A program made the translations under genes and the position numbers. The notes under the pieces are model-generated. The model made no database searches and was not told where the DNA came from. It worked only from the letters and a program-made list of their open reading frames with translations. A stretch of DNA of 64,000 nucleotides from Cynocephalus volans (taxonomy: Eukaryota; Chordata; Mammalia; Dermoptera; Cynocephalidae): NCBI RefSeq assembly GCF_027409185.1, contig NC_084463.1, positions 43,130,407 through 43,194,406 of the forward strand. Direction: 5' to 3'. Each line of letters opens with the position of its first letter. Within the stretch, counting starts at the first letter, position 1. Shown here in pieces: positions 45,062 through 64,000 of the stretch.

Positions 45062-45155
<94 letters not shown>

Positions 45156-45293
45156 CTCTCTCTCTCTTTCTTTCTTTCTCTTTCTTTCTTTCTTTCTTTC
45201 TCTTTCTTTCTTTCTTTCTTTCTTTTTCTTTCTTTCTTTCTTTCTTTCTTTTTCTTTCTTTCTTTTTCTTTCTCTTTCTTTCTTTCTTTTTAT
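45060..45293. repeat. (TTTC)n / (GAAA)n tract
   Basis: About 230 bp of TTTC units with some CT interruptions. It sits exactly at the 3' end of the adjoining antisense L1, so it is most likely an expanded L1 tail. The Phe/Leu/Ser-rich and Lys/Arg/Glu-rich open frames across it are repeat artefacts. Confidence 0.95.
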
Positions 45294-47124: not shown

Positions 47125-47385
47125 CTGTAGATCGGATGCCCCCCACCCCAACCTCACTGACCCCATTCTAACTGTTGAGCGTGGGAGATCCTATGATGAT
47201 AATTGACAGGTGGAGCCTTGAAGAGGTGAATAGATTGTAGGACCACGCCCTCGTGAATGGACTAATAATAGTGGCCAGGGGCATGGTTCTGAAGACTTTA
47301 AAAGTAGAGCACATGAGAGGTTAGTCTCTGCTCTGCTCTCTCTGCTTCTACCATATTGCAATGTGAGATGCCTGGGTCACTTGTT
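47125..47385 (+). mobile_element. MaLR/MLT-like LTR fragment, plus strand
   Basis: GACAGGTGGAGCCTTGAAGA, ACGCCCTCGTGAATGGACTA and the CTCTGCTCTCTCTGCTTCTA block follow MaLR LTR order. The normal 3' end is missing: at about 47385 the sequence passes straight into a CpG island. Confidence 0.55.
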
Positions 47386-47945
47386 CCCGCAAGAGCACAG
47401 GCTGGCTGCAGACGCACCGCAGGAACAGCAGTCGCCGGGGAGCGGGCCGATCGCAGGGCCCCGCCGCGTGAGCGCACGACTCGGAGGCTGCCGGCCCCGG
47501 GGGAGCGCGCGGGACCTGCTCCAGCTGCGCAGGAAGGTGCCCGCTCGCCTTGTGCCCTGAGCTGGCCGATGCGCTCCCAGGTGCCGGAGTCCGCCGGCGG
47601 CGTGCCGCGTGCCGGGGAGGGGGACGCTGCCCGCGGCGGTGCGGCAGACAACCATGGTCGGCGCCTGTGACAGCCCCGGGTCCGCCACCGCCAGGGGGCT
47701 CAGGGGAGCAGCGCCCCCGCCGCCCGCCCGGCCGCCCTCCGGTGCCGGACCGGGGCTCCCCCGCCCTCCTGACGCTGGGGGATCCGCAGCCGCCCGCCCG
47801 CCGCACGAGAGCAATTCGGCTGCGGAGCCTCTCCCGTGGGAACCGCTCCAGGCCTCGGCTCTTCTCCGCTCGCTTTTTCCAGGCTCGCGAGGGCTGGCGG
47901 CTCGGCCCGGCCCCGACCCCTGGCTTTTAGCCATTCTCATAGATG
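47380..47945. promoter_or_regulatory. CpG island, gene not identified
   Basis: About 565 bp of very GC-rich, CpG-dense sequence with GC-box-like runs (CCCGCCGCCCGCCCGG near 47718) between AT-rich repeats. Both strands are open over long stretches (47377-47940 on minus, 187 codons; 47550-47930 on plus), which is expected from base composition alone. No protein was recognised. It may be a promoter/first exon or a repeat-derived GC-rich block. Confidence 0.55.
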
Positions 47946-47989
47946 TGTAGCCGCGGCTTATGTGGCTTTAAGTTGATTTGTATTATTAA

Positions 47990-48170
47990 AATTGCTAACG
48001 TCTTTATCATCTTTAAAGAAATTTTATTGACATTGTGATTATATTATTTATGGGGTACGATCTGATGCTTTGATACGTACATGTTGTGTAATAATCGGGT
48101 CACTGTGGTTATGTCTTACTCCGCTCATGCACTTATCGACACAGGAAGAACTCTCTGCCTTCCCCTATCT
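47990..48170 (-). mobile_element. L1 3'-end fragment, antisense
   Basis: AAAGAAATTTTATTGACATTG and TTTATGGGGTACGATCTGATG are a reversed L1 3' UTR. Short and 5'-truncated. Confidence 0.65.
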
Positions 48171-50429: not shown

Positions 50430-52110
50430 AGCAGTTGTTCGCTCATGCAGAGAAGTGTGCGCGCCCACCACCTGCACCCTCCGGGCCACACGGAATCGAA
50501 GGACAGACCCCGTCCTCGTGTGTTTAGTGAGGAGAGACCACGGAAAAGCTCCAGCCGGGAAGCCCAGGGAAAGCCAGTCATCCACACCTGCAGCCAGGCC
50601 GTCTACACCCGGAGCCGGCCATCCACACCCGCGGCCAGGCCATCTACACCCAGAGCCGGCCATCCACACCCGCAGCCAGGCCGTCCACACCCAGGGCCGG
50701 CCATCCACACCTGCAGCCAGGCCGTCTACGCCCAGGGCCGGCCATCCGCACCCGCGGCCAGGCCGTCCACACCCAGGGCCGGCCATCCGTACCCGCAGCC
50801 AGGCCGTCTACACCCAGAGCCGGCCATCCGCACCCGCGGCCAGGCCGTCCACACCCGGAGCCGGCCATCCGCACCTGCAGCCAGGCCGTCTACACCCAGG
50901 GCCGGCCATCCACACCTGCAGCCAGGCCGTCTACACCCGGAGCCGGTCATCCACACCCGCGGCCAGGCCGTCTACACCCAGAGCCGGCCATCCGCACCTG
51001 CAGCCAGGCCGTCCGTACTCGCACCCCCAGGAGGTGGCAGAAAGGTGCTGCTTAGCCTTCAAGGCCTTCTGCTTTCCTGCTCGCTTCCCCACACCCCACG
51101 CGTGGCCAGAGCCTCAGTTTCCTCCTCTGTCCGCTCAACCCCAGGACTCGGGTTGGTCAGGGTTGGGGGGCGGCATTTCGGGGCTTGGTAACATCCCCCG
51201 CCCCGCCCCAGGGGACCGGACCTACCTGTCGCCTCCCCGCAGCCCGGCCTGCCCCGCCCACCGTCTCCGCCTAAGCCGGACGCCCCCTCTCTTCAACCCC
51301 GGACCCGACGCCGACGATGCCCGGGAGAGTTGGGGGATCGCTACCCCCGGCGACCCGCTTCACCCTCCCAGGGGGGCACCCGCCCCTGCTCGCTGCCGCC
51401 TGTCCCCCCGACCCCCTTCACCGACCGCCCACGGGGGCGCCCTCTCCCGCCCCCTCCACAGGGACCCCGTTCCCCTCCCAATGACTCACCCCAAACACAG
51501 CGGACAGGCTGCCGCCCCCTTTCCTCCCTTGTCCCCCAGCCCCTCCCCCACCAGCAAACCTCCTGTCCATCCCCCTGCCCAGGCCAAGGCGGCCCCACTC
51601 CCGGCTGTCCCAGGACGCCGAGGCTCCTCCACTCTCCTCCCCTCCCCCACCCTGACCCAGCTGACGCCACCAAGTCCCCCGCGGCCCGGCCATCGCCGAT
51701 CAGCCCCGGACGCCTGGCGTGGTGCGAGGGCCACCTCCCTGTGAGTACCGGCCCTGCAGGCCACCCTCCTGCGGCCTCTGGGTCAGGACCCCGGGTCCAC
51801 CCCCGCCTTCTAACGGCGGCGCCTTCCCGCCCCTCCCGGCCGTCCTGTCCCTGCAGAGGGTGATACGTGGGAACCGTGGACACTCAGGCCCCGCGGTCAC
51901 CTGGATGAGCCTGGCATTAACAAAGGAACATCCCCGGGACCGAAGGTGACCAGAGCCCTGATGACAGCCTCTGCCCAGACTGAGTCAGACCCCCAGCTCA
52001 CTGGACGCTCCCCATCCCTGGCTTCTGTCCGCGTAGACAGCGTCCCCCAACCCTGAGGACCAGGGAGAGAGCTGACGCCAAGAGCGAGGGCGCAGGAAGC
52101 GCTGATCAAG
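50430..52110. promoter_or_regulatory. Large CpG-rich block containing a minisatellite
   Basis: About 1.7 kb of GC-rich, CpG-dense DNA. The first part is a 41-bp tandem array (50578-51020). The rest is unique-looking C-rich sequence with a donor-like CCT|GTGAGT at 51741 and an acceptor-like CCTGTCCCTGCAG ending at 51856. Long frames on both strands (plus 50455-51744, 429 codons; plus 51330-51863; minus 51341-51883) are expected from low A/T content and show no domains. A promoter or 5' exon of an unidentified gene is possible but unproven. Confidence 0.5.
50578..51020. repeat. 41-bp GC-rich minisatellite, about 10.8 copies
   Basis: The unit is GTCTACACCC-GGAGCCGGCC-ATCCACACCC-GCGGCCAGGC-C with point variants (GTC/ATC, ACACCC/ACGCCC, CGG/CAG). 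Successive units start near 50601, 50642 and so on. As 41 is not a multiple of 3, each frame reads three peptide units in rotation; no frame meets a stop within the array on the plus strand. Confidence 0.93.
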
Positions 52111-52319: not shown

Positions 52320-52700
52320 CTGTGCGCTCGCATGTGTGTGCCTGTGCACGTCTGTGTGAGTCTGTGTGTGGGCCAGTGTGTATGTGCATGCACGTTTATG
52401 TGTGTGTGTGCCTGTGCATGTCTGTGTGAGTCTGTGTGGGCCAGTGTGTATGTGCATGCACGTTTATGTGTGTGTGTGCCTGTGCATGTCTGTGTGAGTC
52501 TGTGTGTGGGCCAGTGTGTATGTGCATGCACGTTTATGTGTGTGTGTGCCTGTGCATGTCTGTGTGAGTCTGTGTGTGGGCCAGTGTGTATGTGCATGCA
52601 TGTTTATGTGTGTGTGCCTGTGCATGTCTGTGTGAGTCTGTGTGTGGGCCAGTGTGTATGTACATGCATGTTTATGTGTGTGCCTGTGTGTGTGTTTACA
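52320..52700. repeat. TG-rich minisatellite, about 70-bp unit, about 5 copies
   Basis: The unit contains GGGCCAGTGTGTATGTGCATG, then CACGTTTATGTGTGTG, then CCTGTGCATGTCTGTGTGAG. GGGCCAGTGTG recurs at about 52369, 52438, 52509, 52578 and 52647. Degenerate TG/CATG-rich sequence continues to 52960. Confidence 0.9.
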
Positions 52701-58964: not shown

Positions 58965-59138
58965 GGGGCCAGCCCGTGGCTCACTTGGGAGAGTGTGGTG
59001 CTGATAACACCAAGGCCACAGCTTCGGATCCCTGTATAGGGATGGCCGGTTAGCTCACTTGGGAGAGCGTGGTGCTGAGGACAAACAGCAAGTCAAGGGT
59101 TAAGATCCCCTTATCAGTCATCTTTAAAAAAAAAAAAA
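58965..59138 (+). mobile_element. Dimeric tRNA-Ile-derived SINE (CYN-like), plus strand
   Basis: Two tRNA-like heads in tandem. The first runs from GGGGCCAGCCCGTGGCTCAC through GGTGCTGATAACACCAAGG (tRNA-Ile anticodon region) to CTTCGGATCC. The second starts GGCCGGTTAGCTCACTTGG and ends before a poly-A tail at 59125. The dimeric tRNA-Ile form is a hallmark of colugo CYN SINEs. Confidence 0.82.
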
Positions 59139-59347
59139 TACAACAGTATGTTGCTGTTAATTGTAATGTCAAATTTATTTGTTAAATAGTTCCAAAAAGC
59201 AAAATCATTTTTGTTGCATGTTATGGGTTAATGTTCCTCTAATTGCAGTGCCATAAAAGCTTATTGAAGTTCTTTTGGTTAAACCAGGCACATCATGCCA
59301 GCACCTCGGGGCCTGCCCAGGGACCCAGTGCATGAGCGCCTTAAGAG

Positions 59348-59394
59348 CCAATCAGAGCATAGCCTGCCGTCGCGCCACCCGGCGGCCAACCAAT
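59348..59394 (+). promoter_or_regulatory. Two CCAAT boxes of the histone H3 promoter
   Basis: CCAATCAG at 59348-59355 and CCAATGGG beginning at 59390 lie about 65 and 20 bp upstream of the TATA box. Paired CCAAT boxes are typical of replication-dependent H3 promoters (NF-Y sites). Confidence 0.8.
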
Positions 59395-59411
59395 GGGAGC
59401 GCTGCGGGCTC

Positions 59412-59418
59412 TATAAAA
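59412..59418 (+). promoter_or_regulatory. TATA box of the histone H3 gene
   Basis: TATAAAA, 70 bp before the start codon. Transcription would start near 59440, giving a leader of about 40 nt, a normal size for replication-dependent histone genes. Confidence 0.82.
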
Positions 59419-59481
59419 GCGAGAGCGCTGAGCCTCTCAGTGCCAGTCGGGAGCGGAGACAGCGGGAGCCTCTTCGTTGTC

Positions 59482-59892
59482 ATGGTTCGCACCAAGCCGA
59501 CGGCGCGGAAGTCGACCGGCGGCAAGGCGCCGCGGAAGCAGCTGGCCGCGAAGGTAGCCCGCAAGAGCGTCCCGGCCACCGGCGGCGTGATGAAGCCGTA
59601 CCGCTTTCGGCCCGGCTCGGTGGCGCTGCGCGAGATCCGCCGCTACCAGAAATCCAGCGCCCTGCTGGTCCGCAAACTGCCGTTCCAGCGGCTGGTGCGA
59701 GAGGTCGCGCAGGATTTCAAGCCAGACCTGCGCTTTCAGATGTCGGCTATGATGGCGCTCCAAGAGGCCTGCGAATCCTACTTGGTGGGGCTGTTTGAGG
59801 ACACCAACCTGTGCGCCATCCACGCCAAGCGTGTCACCATCATGCTCAGAGACATGCAGCTCGCGCTCCGTCTCCGCGGGACGTGGGTCTAG
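59482..59892 (+). CDS. Histone H3 variant with methionine at position 36 (K36M)
   Basis: Core nucleosomal histone, intronless, 136 codons including Met, exactly the family length. Tail landmarks are kept: R2, K4, R8, K9, S10, K14, K18, K23, R26, K27, S28; so are K56, K64, K79, C96, C110 and H113. Against canonical H3.1 I count 25 changes: A1V, Q5P, T22A, A24V, A29V, K36M, H39Y, Y41F, T45S, T58S, E59A, I62V, I74V, T80P, S86M, V89M, A98S, P121L, K122R, I124M, R128L, I130L, E133T, R134W, A135V. V24 and S98 are shared with testis-type H3t; C96 and the SA-M/M90 core place it with replication-dependent H3, not H3.3. K36M replaces the SETD2/NSD substrate lysine by the inhibitory residue known from chondroblastoma. 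The frame is undamaged and CpG-rich. The start is the only ATG at the family position (TTGTCATGG). It stands alone, with no neighbouring histone in the window. It could be a recently dead duplicate, but no lesion is visible. Confidence 0.93.
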
Positions 59893-59931
59893 GCTCCAGG
59901 GGCGATCGCCCTGAGGTCCTGTCACTCCAAA

Positions 59932-59947
59932 GGCTCTTTTAAGAGCC
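59932..59947 (+). terminator. Histone mRNA 3' stem-loop
   Basis: GGCTCTTTTAAGAGCC forms a perfect 6-bp stem with a 4-nt TTTA loop, 40 nt after the stop codon. It matches the SLBP-binding stem-loop that replaces poly(A) in replication-dependent histone mRNAs; CCAAA precedes it and ACCC follows. Confidence 0.92.
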
Positions 59948-59960
59948 ACCCGTTTGGTAT

Positions 59961-59977
59961 AAAAAGTGGCTGTAACA
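59961..59977 (+). promoter_or_regulatory. Histone downstream element (U7 snRNA target)
   Basis: AAAAAGTGGCTGTAACA, 13 nt after the stem-loop, closely matches the complement of the U7 snRNA 5' end (AAAAGAGCTGTAACA). Cleavage would fall between the two elements. Most decayed histone copies would not retain this. Confidence 0.8.
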
Positions 59978-59984
59978 TGGCGGG

Positions 59985-61799
59985 TTGCCGGGCGTCCACG
60001 GGGCTTCTTCCGGCGGTCGGTGCCGGTTCTGTCCCCTCTGTTCGCTTACCGATTAGGAAGGTAATAGACCTAATGAGGTGTTTGCGGTAACTCAGCCCGA
60101 TGCCAGTTAGGTTACGAGCCCCGCTAGTTGTCTGCACGAACTGGAGCATCTGTTCAGACGGCAGCCTAGATAGGCGCGCGCTAACTCGGCTTAGTGCCAA
60201 TTAGGTTGGAAGCCCAGTGAGTGGGTGCATTGTTAACTTGGCCCATCTGCTGTGGGGCTGGTTAGAGGCCTGTGTGTTCTCATCCCATCTCCAGTTAGGC
60301 CAGAAGTCCAGAGTCACGGGTTAACAGCCTAAATGCAAGGAGGTGCTCTACCCCGGTAGCTAACTTCCTGAGCAGTGTCTGGCATTGACTGGCATTGATG
60401 GCCCACATGCTGGCACGTTGAGACAGGCTTCCCAGACCTACAAAGTAGACTGATAATCTGGGGACGAGGGGCGAGGAATCAATTTGAGGAGAAATCCTGT
60501 CACCAGGGTGGTTAGCCTGGAACCCAATAGTGGAGTTTAGGTCAGGATAACTTGAGAATGGCTGTAAGGATACGGATGTAAGAATTTTCTTTCTTTGGTA
60601 CAAATTACAATTGTTCACTAAAGGCTTTATTAAATTACTGGAAGCCAGGCACTGTCTGGTGCTGAGAACACAGTAAAATCCATTCCCTACTGTCACTGGC
60701 CACTCGGTTTTCCAGGGGCTTACAGTTGAGTGAAGGAGGCTTGTATTGCACGTAGAAGCAATGATAGTAAAAAGTGCTCTTATGAATAGCAAGGGGTGTG
60801 AGTAAGAGGCTCTCAGAATGCAATAGTGGGATCTGGAAGCCTCTGAGCCCGGCTTCTATCCTGCCGACTCAATTCAAACGCTATAGCAACTAAATGAGTA
60901 CGCACACAATTAAAATGTCCACTTTTAGAATGTACTTAAGTTAGCTGATGACAAATCCTTGAAGGACTGTCCAGAAACAGTACGCAGAGACTGTTATAAA
61001 CAGAAGCAGACTAATAATATAGTACTCAAGGAAGCCTTTCCAACACACACATTTGTGTTACATCCCAGGACTGTCTGTGCGGAAGGGGCACAGCTCTGCA
61101 CTAGGCAGTGTTAATTCTGAGCAGAAAGACATGGACCTGTCCAGGAAGCGCAGCAGGACTGATAAAGCCCAGCAAGGGTTTTGCGTCCAGGGGTTTGCAG
61201 GCAACATGCATGTCAGGTCCCATGTGAATCCTTGACTCAAAACCATGTGGACCCAAAGCTGGAGAGTCGTGCTGAGAACTGGGCAGGGTGGCCAAGGACA
61301 GGGATGTACCAACTGGGTCCCATGGGGATGCCTTCTCACTCTCCAGATACCATGCCACCAACTTGGTGGTGCAGAGAGAAGATGACTTGAGAAAAGCTGG
61401 AAGAGGAGAGCACTGAGGAGAGGCTCGGGTTCTCCCTCTTGTGATATAACTGGGGTCGCTCAGGAAATAGCTTCTAAATACAGAACAAGTAACGCTGCCC
61501 TCTGTGGTAGGAAACAATTGCTTGAATGTTTTTAAGTTAATTGTTTTCAAGTGTTTGTCATGAGAACCAATTTAGTCCCACCTGGAAAATTTGAATCATT
61601 TTTATAAAACTATGGAACTATTACAATTAGGACTGGGGCCTTTGTTGCTGTCCTGCCGGTCCTACTCATGTGGGAATAGAAAGTTGAAGTGTAGACATTT
61701 GTTCCCCTTTTACTGAATTCTGTGAGCCCCTGAATGCTACAGAGACAGCCTCAGAGTGGAGCGTTTACCAGCAGAATGCAGCGGAAACCCTGAAAATAA
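59985..61799. other. Flank with no recognisable gene
   Basis: At 60091-60330 a motif with TAACTCGGC…TGCCA(A/G)TTAGGTT…AGCCC recurs at about 90-bp spacing, a degenerate tandem duplication. Around 60640-60740, CCAGGCACTGTCTGGTGCTG and GGGGCTTACAGTTGAGTG look like an ancient mammalian interspersed repeat (MIR/L2 type). Open frames at 60295-60792 (minus) and 61101-61550 (minus) have no recognisable features. Confidence 0.4.
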
Positions 61800-62230
61800 A
61801 CAATGGAAGGGAAAGAGGGCTGGGCATCAGAGGAAAGAATACGCCACCCCAAATATGCCAGGTGGGCATGTGGATTACCTTGAGCTAAAGGCACTTAAAA
61901 AGGCACTTCTGTTTTCTTCCTGAAAGCAGGGGACGTGACTCCCATGGGAAACATGCCCTCCTATACCAGGAGACAAGAAAGATTCTTATCACCATAGATG
62001 GGGACTTGAGGCTGAGAAAAATACACACCTTGTTAAAATAACTTGTATCTTCGTTTAGCCTCATATAATTTAGTTACTTTTTTACAAGTCACTACTCTGC
62101 TCAACCTGGTATGTAAACACATAGGCCGAACCACTTTGGGGGTCTTCATTTTCCTGTGAAGGTGCCCTGGTACATATAAAAATGCAATATGTATGCTTTT
62201 CTCCTGTTAATCTGTCTTATGTCGTCTTAC
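61800..62230 (+). mobile_element. Class I ERV-type LTR, plus strand
   Basis: It ends with TTTTCTCCTGTTAATCTGTC and TTATGTCGTC, the same 3' signature as the LTRs at 48660 and 49750; the last part is cut off by the following MaLR LTR. The left limit is approximate. Confidence 0.5.
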
Positions 62231-62231
62231 T

Positions 62232-62579
62232 CTGTTTAGGTTGCTATAACAAAATACCATAGCCTGGGTGGCTTTTAAACAGTACAAATTTATTTCTCAC
62301 AGTTCTGAAGGCTGGAAGTCATAGATGGGGTGCCAGCAGATTTAGTTTCTCAAGGTCATTTCCTGGTTCACAGATGGCAGCTTCTTCATGTGTCCTCACA
62401 TGGTGGAAGGGGTGAGGACCCTTTCTAGGGTCCCTTTCATTAGGGCACTAATCCCACTCATGAGGGCTCCACCCTCATGATCTAATCACCTCCCAAAGCC
62501 CCAGCTCCTAACCCCATCACCTTGGGGTTAGGATTTCCACATAGGGAATTCAGGGGAACACAGACATTCAGTCCGTCAC
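62232..62579 (-). mobile_element. MaLR/MLT-type LTR, antisense
   Basis: The plus strand shows TTGCTATAACAAAATACCATAG, TTTCTCACAGTTCTGAAGGC, ATGATCTAATCACCTCCCAA and TTAGGATTTCCACATAGGG. This is the reverse complement of an MLT1/MST-like LTR. Confidence 0.75.
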
Positions 62580-63417
62580 AAACTGGATTTGTCTTTACAC
62601 GACACAATGGACTTTCCTGACTAGGAGTCAGGGTTGAACACAGATGCCGTGACCCTGCTGTCCTGTTTCCGGGGGCCCGTCTTCCTTTCCGTTCAATGGA
62701 GCACACCATTTTTCAGGAGTGCCTGGTTCTTTCTCTCATCTTCTCTGCAATGTTAATAACTTCATGGGGGCTGGAGGGAGCAGCATCACACTGAAAGAGT
62801 GCCACTGACCGTCACAGTGAAGGGACAGCCGCCTTGTAACTGTTTAGACTTGGCTGACATTTTCACTTCAAAATTTTATTTATTTTTAAAAAGACAATCT
62901 ATAGAAATGGTATAAGATTTAAGAATTTCAAGAGTTTATATAGTAAAAATTGAATCTTTTTCAATTGGAGGGGGTTTCTCAGCCCTTAATTTTCCCTTCA
63001 GATGGAGTTTCTTGTATATTTTTCAAGAGGTGCTTATACAATCATCTAATTATGACTTTTTACCGAAATGTGCATATATGTAGTCTGACCTGTCTTTTAG
63101 TAAACCTAACAGCTTACCAGGACACATAAGAGCTTTCTGATTCTCCTTAATGATTTTATAGTGTTTCCTTTTCAGGATATTAAGGCTGTTTCCAATTGTT
63201 TTACCATAAAGGAAAAATAGCATCTCAGCCCAATAACCAGGGGTCCCTAACAGAACATTAATACTGAAATCCTAGGCTGATGCAGTATTTTAGCAAGTAT
63301 TTGTTGAATATCCACATTTTGCTGGGGGTGAGAGGGTGGGGAGGGAGGGCGAGGAACAGGTGGAGACCCTGTAAGGGCAAATATAACCCTTTCTTTCAGA
63401 ACTTCATCCTCTGTCCT
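62580..63417. other. No recognisable gene
   Basis: About 840 bp without a supported feature; the AT-rich part at 62870-63215 may be an old LINE or DNA-transposon fragment that I cannot name. Confidence 0.35.
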
Positions 63418-63506
63418 TCTCTTTTTTTCTTTTGCCACTGGGATAAAAACCCTTGACCTTGGCACTGTAACACTGTGCTCTAACCAACTGAGCTAGGCAG
63501 TAGCCC
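63418..63506 (-). mobile_element. tRNA-derived SINE, antisense
   Basis: The minus strand reads TGCCTAGCTCAGTTGGTTAG (A-box region), CACAGTGTTACAGTGCCAAG and GGTCAAGGGTTTTTATCCC (decayed B box), with an A-rich tail. Confidence 0.65.
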
Positions 63507-63639
63507 CATTCATTCTCTGTCTTTTTCAAATTCAAATGTATGTAAATCTTGTTAATGGCTAAACAAACCTCTTGCCAGTGTGACACCTCAGGAATATATC
63601 CTGAAGGACGTTGGAGCTATTTCTGAAATGTAATTGTAG

Positions 63640-64000
63640 AGAAGGAAAAAAACCTCTACCTTCTTAGGTTTGTAACTGGGGCCTACAAAGTAAACTGACA
63701 AAAGCCAGATTAACAGGAGAAAAAGCATGCACTTTTCATCTTGTTTTTAATTTTACATGCATGGAGGCTTCAGAGAAAAAGGAAAAACCAACGACGCTGT
63801 TAGGCTCAGGCACTCAGATACCATTTTCAACAGGTGATGAATTATGGGAAGGTGACTAGGGCATGCATAGGAGACAAGGGTTTAGTAAGGATTATTTGTG
63901 CAGACTCTTCTTGGTGCAGAATTTCCATCTTCTGCGTGGCCATAAAGACTCCCCTAGAGAGGAGATTTTTGGCAGTCCTCATTTCTCAAAGCTTCTGCTT
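63640..64000 (-). mobile_element. Class I ERV-type LTR, antisense (runs off window)
   Basis: On the minus strand, TGCTTTTTCTCCTGTTAATC followed by TGGCTTTTGTCAGTTTACTTTG is the same LTR 3' signature as at 62190, in the opposite orientation. Confidence 0.55.

Follow-up and report, generated by a model that had tools for sequence, protein, structure and literature searches.

The stretch of DNA analyzed here (64,000 nucleotides from the colugo Cynocephalus volans, hereafter the window) contains an uninterrupted open reading frame on the forward strand at 59482–59892, which by direct reading starts with ATG at 59482, ends with TAG at 59890–59892 and comprises 136 codons without an internal stop. 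Based on its sequence, the encoded protein is a histone H3: it matched the Pfam Histone domain at 143.3 bits and H3 chains from the PDB at E ~1e-70 among the best 60 of 222 distinct matched sequences. The matched H3 chains include one from PDB 7e8d, an entry that we take to belong to structural work on NSD2 bound to the nucleosome. In mature numbering, in which Ala1 follows the initiator Met, codons 35–38 read GTG ATG AAG CCG, and codon 36 (59590–59592, forward strand) specifies methionine in place of the lysine of canonical H3. Both the methionine at residue 36 and the intact, full-length frame had been claimed in the first-pass annotation, and both were confirmed by direct reading. Combining direct reading with the Pfam and PDB comparisons, we annotated 59482–59892 as an H3 coding sequence of putative H3.4 type (V24, C96 and S98) carrying K36M.

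The frame lies in what appears to be an expression-ready setting. On the forward strand upstream, two CCAAT boxes (distal, 59348–59352; proximal, 59390–59394) and a TATA box (TATAAA, 59412–59417, 70 bases before the ATG) were identified by motif match only; CCAAT boxes have a role in histone promoters. Downstream on the same strand, an Rfam match to the histone mRNA 3' stem-loop and the stretch that follows it (RF00032, 59927–59972) begins 35 bases past the stop codon, with a score of 36.9 bits that exceeds the gathering threshold of 34; all six stem pairs and the loop fit the consensus, and the stretch 3' of the stem-loop fits only weakly. A CpG island (59301–60200, no strand assigned), recognized by CpG observed/expected ratio and GC3, spans the promoter, coding sequence and 3' end. 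The coding sequence has a CpG observed/expected ratio of 1.10 and a GC3 of 0.88, compared to a ratio of 0.28 and a GC content of 0.40 for the whole window, and the CpG content of the gene shows no decay. Judged by these motifs, the gene is equipped as a replication-dependent histone gene would be, with two CCAAT boxes, a TATA box, the stem-loop and the CpG island, in agreement with the earlier suggestion of S-phase expression. A scan of the promoter for bacterial-type promoters and terminators returned nothing useful, and tRNA and Rfam scans found no gene besides the H3 stem-loop match.

Three residues point to a particular member of the H3 family. Codon 24 is GTA (at 59554), while residues 96 and 98 are specified by TGC and TCC, giving V24, C96 and S98. 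In a published survey of >100 eutherian genomes, V24 is described as distinctive of 60 H3.4-coding orthologs, with one A24 exception, no V24 paralogs are reported outside HIST3 clusters, and C96 is stated to be encoded by all eutherian H3-4 orthologs (PMC13396413). Because V24, C96 and S98 are all present, the gene is most readily assigned to H3-4 (H3.4/H3t; formerly HIST3H3, and H3f4 in mouse), which encodes the replication-coupled H3 of the eutherian testis and with which it shares these marks and a single-frame, replication-dependent organization with a 3' stem-loop. From the H3.4/H3t motif SAVM at residues 87–90, it keeps S87, A88 and M90, and V89M gives SAMM; the human-specific M71 and V111 and the mouse-specific H42 are absent. 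Taking H3.1 with V24 and S98 as the inferred H3.4 ancestor, the colugo protein is identical to this ancestor at 112/135 residues, to human H3.4 at 110/135 (81.5%), to mouse H3.4 at 111/135 and to H3.1 at 110/135. The top PDB match was mouse H3t (238.7 bits), followed by an H3.1 chain with M36 (238.5), human H3t (237.4) and H3.1 (237.2), margins so small that the H3.4 assignment rests on V24, C96 and S98. The same marks make germ-cell character probable, and to that extent the first-pass suggestion of a germ-cell histone stands, although that annotation had not recognized the gene as H3-4.

Synteny was sought within the window. The published criterion for the H3-4 locus is a HIST3 cluster adjoining TRIM11/TRIM17, with one H2A and two H2B genes (PMC13396413); no flanking TRIM11/17, H2A or H2B was seen in the stretches covered by the searches that follow. 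Searching the whole window by tblastn with H2A, H2B, H4, H3 and putative RNF187 queries identified the H3 gene only, apart from one chance-level H2B match (E 0.22), and the 59 kb upstream of the gene contained no H2A or H2B by this search. Six-frame Pfam scans of 59900–63999 and of six 5-kb upstream blocks (5–10, 21–26, 33–38, 41–46, 46–51 and 51–56 kb, amounting to 30 of the 59 kb) found no TRIM domains and gave two reverse-transcriptase matches only, one of them below the Pfam cut-off. Beyond the gene, the window extends for a further 4.1 kb; human TRIM17 presumably lies ~8 kb downstream of H3-4, a distance that falls past the end of the window. A putative H3-4 ortholog, called from its diagnostic residues, is the best reading. 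The gene could instead be another replication-dependent H3 copy that acquired V24 and S98 independently, in keeping with the lack of a HIST3 neighbor in the scanned portions of the window, the presence of S98 in one unrelated H3 (L003) and an H3.1 PDB score within 1.5 bits of that of H3t; however, V24 is reported to be exclusive to H3-4 (PMC13396413) and here coincides with C96 and S98, and we consider such a copy very unlikely.

The protein is highly diverged for a histone H3. This divergence had gone unmentioned in the first-pass annotation. The protein differs from canonical H3.1 at 25 residues including K36M, and from the inferred H3.4 ancestor at 23: A1V, Q5P, T22A, A29V, K36M, H39Y and Y41F in residues 1–44, and T45S, T58S, E59A, I62V, I74V, T80P, S86M, V89M, P121L, K122R, I124M, R128L, I130L, E133T, R134W and A135V from residue 45 on. 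Four changes (P121L, R128L, R134W and Q5P) are radical. The division between tail and core, with 7/23 changes in residues 1–44 and 16/23 from 45 on, matches chance expectation. Divergence by itself is weak evidence of loss, because camel H3.4, classed among the coding orthologs, shares just 86% identity with its human counterpart (PMC13396413). The same survey puts dn/ds at 0.024 among coding H3-4 genes and at 0.46 among pseudogenes of H3-4, and finds the gene disrupted or missing in gorilla, species of New World monkeys, Felidae, the dingo and several dogs (PMC13396413). Its main text does not mention colugo, Galeopterus or Dermoptera, and its supplementary species tables may include colugo. 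Among the matches listed in the open-licence literature, none described an H3 K36M encoded in the germ line or an H3-4 gene from colugo.

We compared these changes to neutral simulations (two transition biases, 1500 runs for each), which were halted at 23 amino-acid changes; their ancestor was assembled from codons of the window itself, and CpG effects were ignored. M36 turned up in 2% and 1% of runs, and methionine at any of K4, K9, K27 or K36 in 7.8% and 5.7%, so M36 is unusual, yet within chance for so diverged a copy; a single case is unsurprising because many lineages drift. Lysines are preserved no better than chance: 11/13 were kept, with K36M and K122R as the losses, and two or fewer changed in 46% and 52% of neutral runs. 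K36 is the sole loss from a list of 19 tail modification sites (18/19 kept), and the loss of one site or none has a 12% chance when 23 changes are placed at random.

Other features of the divergence depart from drift. The mean BLOSUM62 score of the changes is 0.22, compared to −0.53 and −0.47 under neutrality, and was as high in 1.3% and 2.3% of runs. Compared to the H3.4 ancestor, residues 90–120 carry no change (31 residues; 3% under random placement), although the longest unchanged stretch relative to H3.1 is 99–120 (22 residues; 18%). By 23 changes, 33% and 35% of runs were free of stops, and 0.9% had neither a stop nor an indel, assuming 0.1 indel per substitution. The base spectrum of the inferred changes, 11 AT-to-GC and 10 GC-to-AT, shifts with the choice of ancestral codons, four of which are ambiguous, and is given no weight. 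Pure neutral drift is a poor fit to the other features; under our model they point to constraint over at least part of the gene's divergence, and they say nothing on selection at codon 36. Since the changes are mild, the frame is intact, a long stretch is kept and the CpG content is undecayed, any loosening of constraint would have to be recent or partial.

The same figures bear on whether the gene is a silent, recent pseudogene, dead in transcription or in assembly, whose frame survives by chance. The repeated breakage or loss of H3-4 in eutherians (PMC13396413) and the radical substitutions at residues 5, 121, 128 and 134 fit such a history, but an intact frame would be improbable after 23 strictly neutral changes (the 0.9% obtained at the assumed indel rate), and neither the CpG island nor the promoter motifs and stem-loop have deteriorated. 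We consider a pseudogene of this kind quite unlikely.

The surroundings of Met36 are largely those that SETD2 would recognize. SETD2 is reported to recognize G33, G34, a hydrophobic V35 and P38, and to prefer R40 (PMC7495481), and the translation GGVMKPYR retains all five around M36. Two neighboring residues are altered, with Y39 and F41 in place of H39 and Y41: Set2 on the nucleosome is reported to contact both positions (PMC6706414), and Y41 to hydrogen-bond SETD2 (PMC9116022). H39Y need not be harmful, nor position 39 decisive, because replacing H39 with N or K improved methylation of peptides by SETD2 (PMC7495481). Binding of SETD2 to the colugo tail is plausible but altered. NSD2 has been solved on nucleosomes using H3 K36M (PMC8593083). 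With the H3.3 K36M oncohistone of chondroblastoma, the colugo protein shares M36 together with G33, G34, V35, K37, P38 and R40; it differs from it in being encoded in the germ line, in being of the H3.1/H3.4 type, in carrying A29V, H39Y and Y41F nearby and in having 16 changes from residue 45 on.

These observations would allow for a working, selected K36M histone, made in replicating spermatogonia, in which nucleosomal Met36 occupies the active site of SETD2 or NSD enzymes, lowers K36 methylation in germ cells and perhaps aids meiotic entry. Apart from the preserved recognition residues, this is in line with the intact frame, promoter motifs, stem-loop and CpG island, with the loss of K36 from an otherwise complete set of tail modification sites and with the biology of KDM2A, an H3K36me3 demethylase in male germ cells that is required for meiotic entry (PMC11448500), a requirement from which it follows that a mild K36 inhibitor could have a use. 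Several points weigh against it. So few tail-site losses have the 12% chance given above, H39Y and Y41F alter reported Set2/SETD2 contacts (PMC6706414, PMC9116022) and A29V falls in the same segment, while the sixteen changes from residue 45 on may hinder assembly. The parallel with KDM2A is loose, because loss of Kdm2a raised H3K36me3 and lowered H3K36me2 (PMC11448500), unlike a general block of K36. Male mice that lack Setd2 in their germ cells are completely infertile (PMC6792021). On balance, we regard a selected inhibitor as rather unlikely. The first-pass annotation had pictured a fixed, built-in inhibitor of K36 methylation, and this picture is not supported here: K36M is one change among 22 others, including P121L, R128L, R134W, Q5P and A1V, reported Set2/SETD2 contacts at residues 39 and 41 are also replaced, and the gene family is reported to have been lost in several eutherian lineages.

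A further form of this idea is that the lineage turned its testis H3.4 into a natural K36M oncohistone, deposited throughout germ-line chromatin in a replication-coupled manner in spermatogonia, where a dose-limited block of SETD2 and NSD enzymes would leave less K36 methylation at the approach to meiosis, for which the mouse uses the demethylase KDM2A; we hold this scenario to be distinctly improbable. Mouse H3.4 is reported to become the main H3 of differentiating spermatogonia (PMC13396413), and mouse-like expression of a K36M H3.4 would be very costly, because germ-cell loss of Setd2 sterilizes males.

Alternatively, the protein may function as an H3.4 whose residue 36 cannot be methylated and traps no methyltransferase, making it a divergent packaging histone of the germ line. 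Substitutions that are mild on average, the kept CpG island and a camel coding ortholog that is nearly as diverged, at 86% identity to human (PMC13396413), are all compatible with this, and H39Y together with Y41F could weaken SETD2 binding, but the trapping core GGVMKP is intact; we judge a passive role of this kind to be unlikely. These readings overlap, and the probabilities attached to them are not meant to sum to one.

The reading that we favor, with a probability somewhat better than even, is that the gene is an H3-4 ortholog, intact with its promoter motifs and 3' end, under loosened constraint, and that K36M is a by-product. Protein constraint on H3-4 would have loosened along the colugo lineage, recently or in part, and K36M would most likely be incidental among ~23 changes rather than an evolved inhibitor. 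If transcribed, the gene would be expected to be expressed in S-phase spermatogonia by way of the stem-loop pathway, and the resulting divergent H3 may assemble poorly. We infer the loosened constraint, the germ-line expression and the absence of a selected role for K36M from sequence. A misread or misassembled codon 36 might be entertained, given that the locus is known from a single sequence, but the frame is clean, 22 other changes accompany K36M and a single error would leave the picture of a diverged copy unchanged; we consider such an error extremely unlikely. A germ-line K36M H3 in an expression-ready setting would amount to a natural experiment on the effects of an oncohistone in an intact organism. 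Should its constraint be fading instead, the colugo would join the eutherians in which H3-4 has repeatedly been lost, with a K36M copy that is tolerable and presumably expressed weakly or not at all.

Comparison to other divergent H3 proteins puts these changes in context. Primate H3.Y has T80P, K122R, I124M and I130L in common with the colugo protein, but the two are identical at only 92/135 residues and H3.Y has A24, S96 and A98; it is listed among primate variants mostly derived from H3.3 (PMC13396413). Kinship with H3.Y is ruled out by the low identity, and the four common changes probably reflect convergence on substitutions that H3 tolerates. Mouse H3mm variants are likewise divergent, lineage-specific H3 copies, but differ in being H3.3-like, and those that enter chromatin are reported without a stem-loop; K4, K9, K27 and K36 are conserved in all of them (PMC4574566). 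In the same work, at least four mouse H3.3-like variants, marked #11, #23, #23 and #51, failed to enter chromatin (PMC4574566), where we took '#' in the table to be the number of changes and covered the first eight H3mm rows.

H3-like proteins were also found in other collections, on one viral contig and eight genome-bin contigs. By their sequences, these nine appear to be eukaryotic carry-over or distant relatives, and none could be recognized as H3.4 DNA from a mammal. At position 36, lysine occurs in 7/9, arginine in L007 and isoleucine in the distant L008, with methionine in 0/9. The genome-bin contig L007, assigned to bacterium TMED88, encodes at 1501–2002 a split H3 with asparagine 27, alanine 28 and arginine 36, the first segment of which is 85.6% identical to H3.1; it is probably eukaryotic carry-over.

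Several other features were observed in the window. A second CpG island at 47301–48100 (CpG observed/expected ~0.85–1.07 in 400-base steps) contains overlapping long frames on both strands and no Pfam domain, and is possibly the first exon or promoter of some gene. A GC-rich minisatellite at 50572–51013 (41-base unit, 10.8 copies) gives rise to a 248-aa frame at 50445–51191, which is a product of the repeat and not an evident gene. Other tandem repeats include a TGTG-rich array at 52333–52682 (70-base unit, 5.1 copies, 96% match) and a CTTT microsatellite at 45062–45289 (59 copies). Lastly, a tRNA-like SINE head lies at 58967–58984, ~500 bases before the ATG of the H3 gene, the single such match in the window, with one mismatch to what we take to be the colugo CYN-type pattern.
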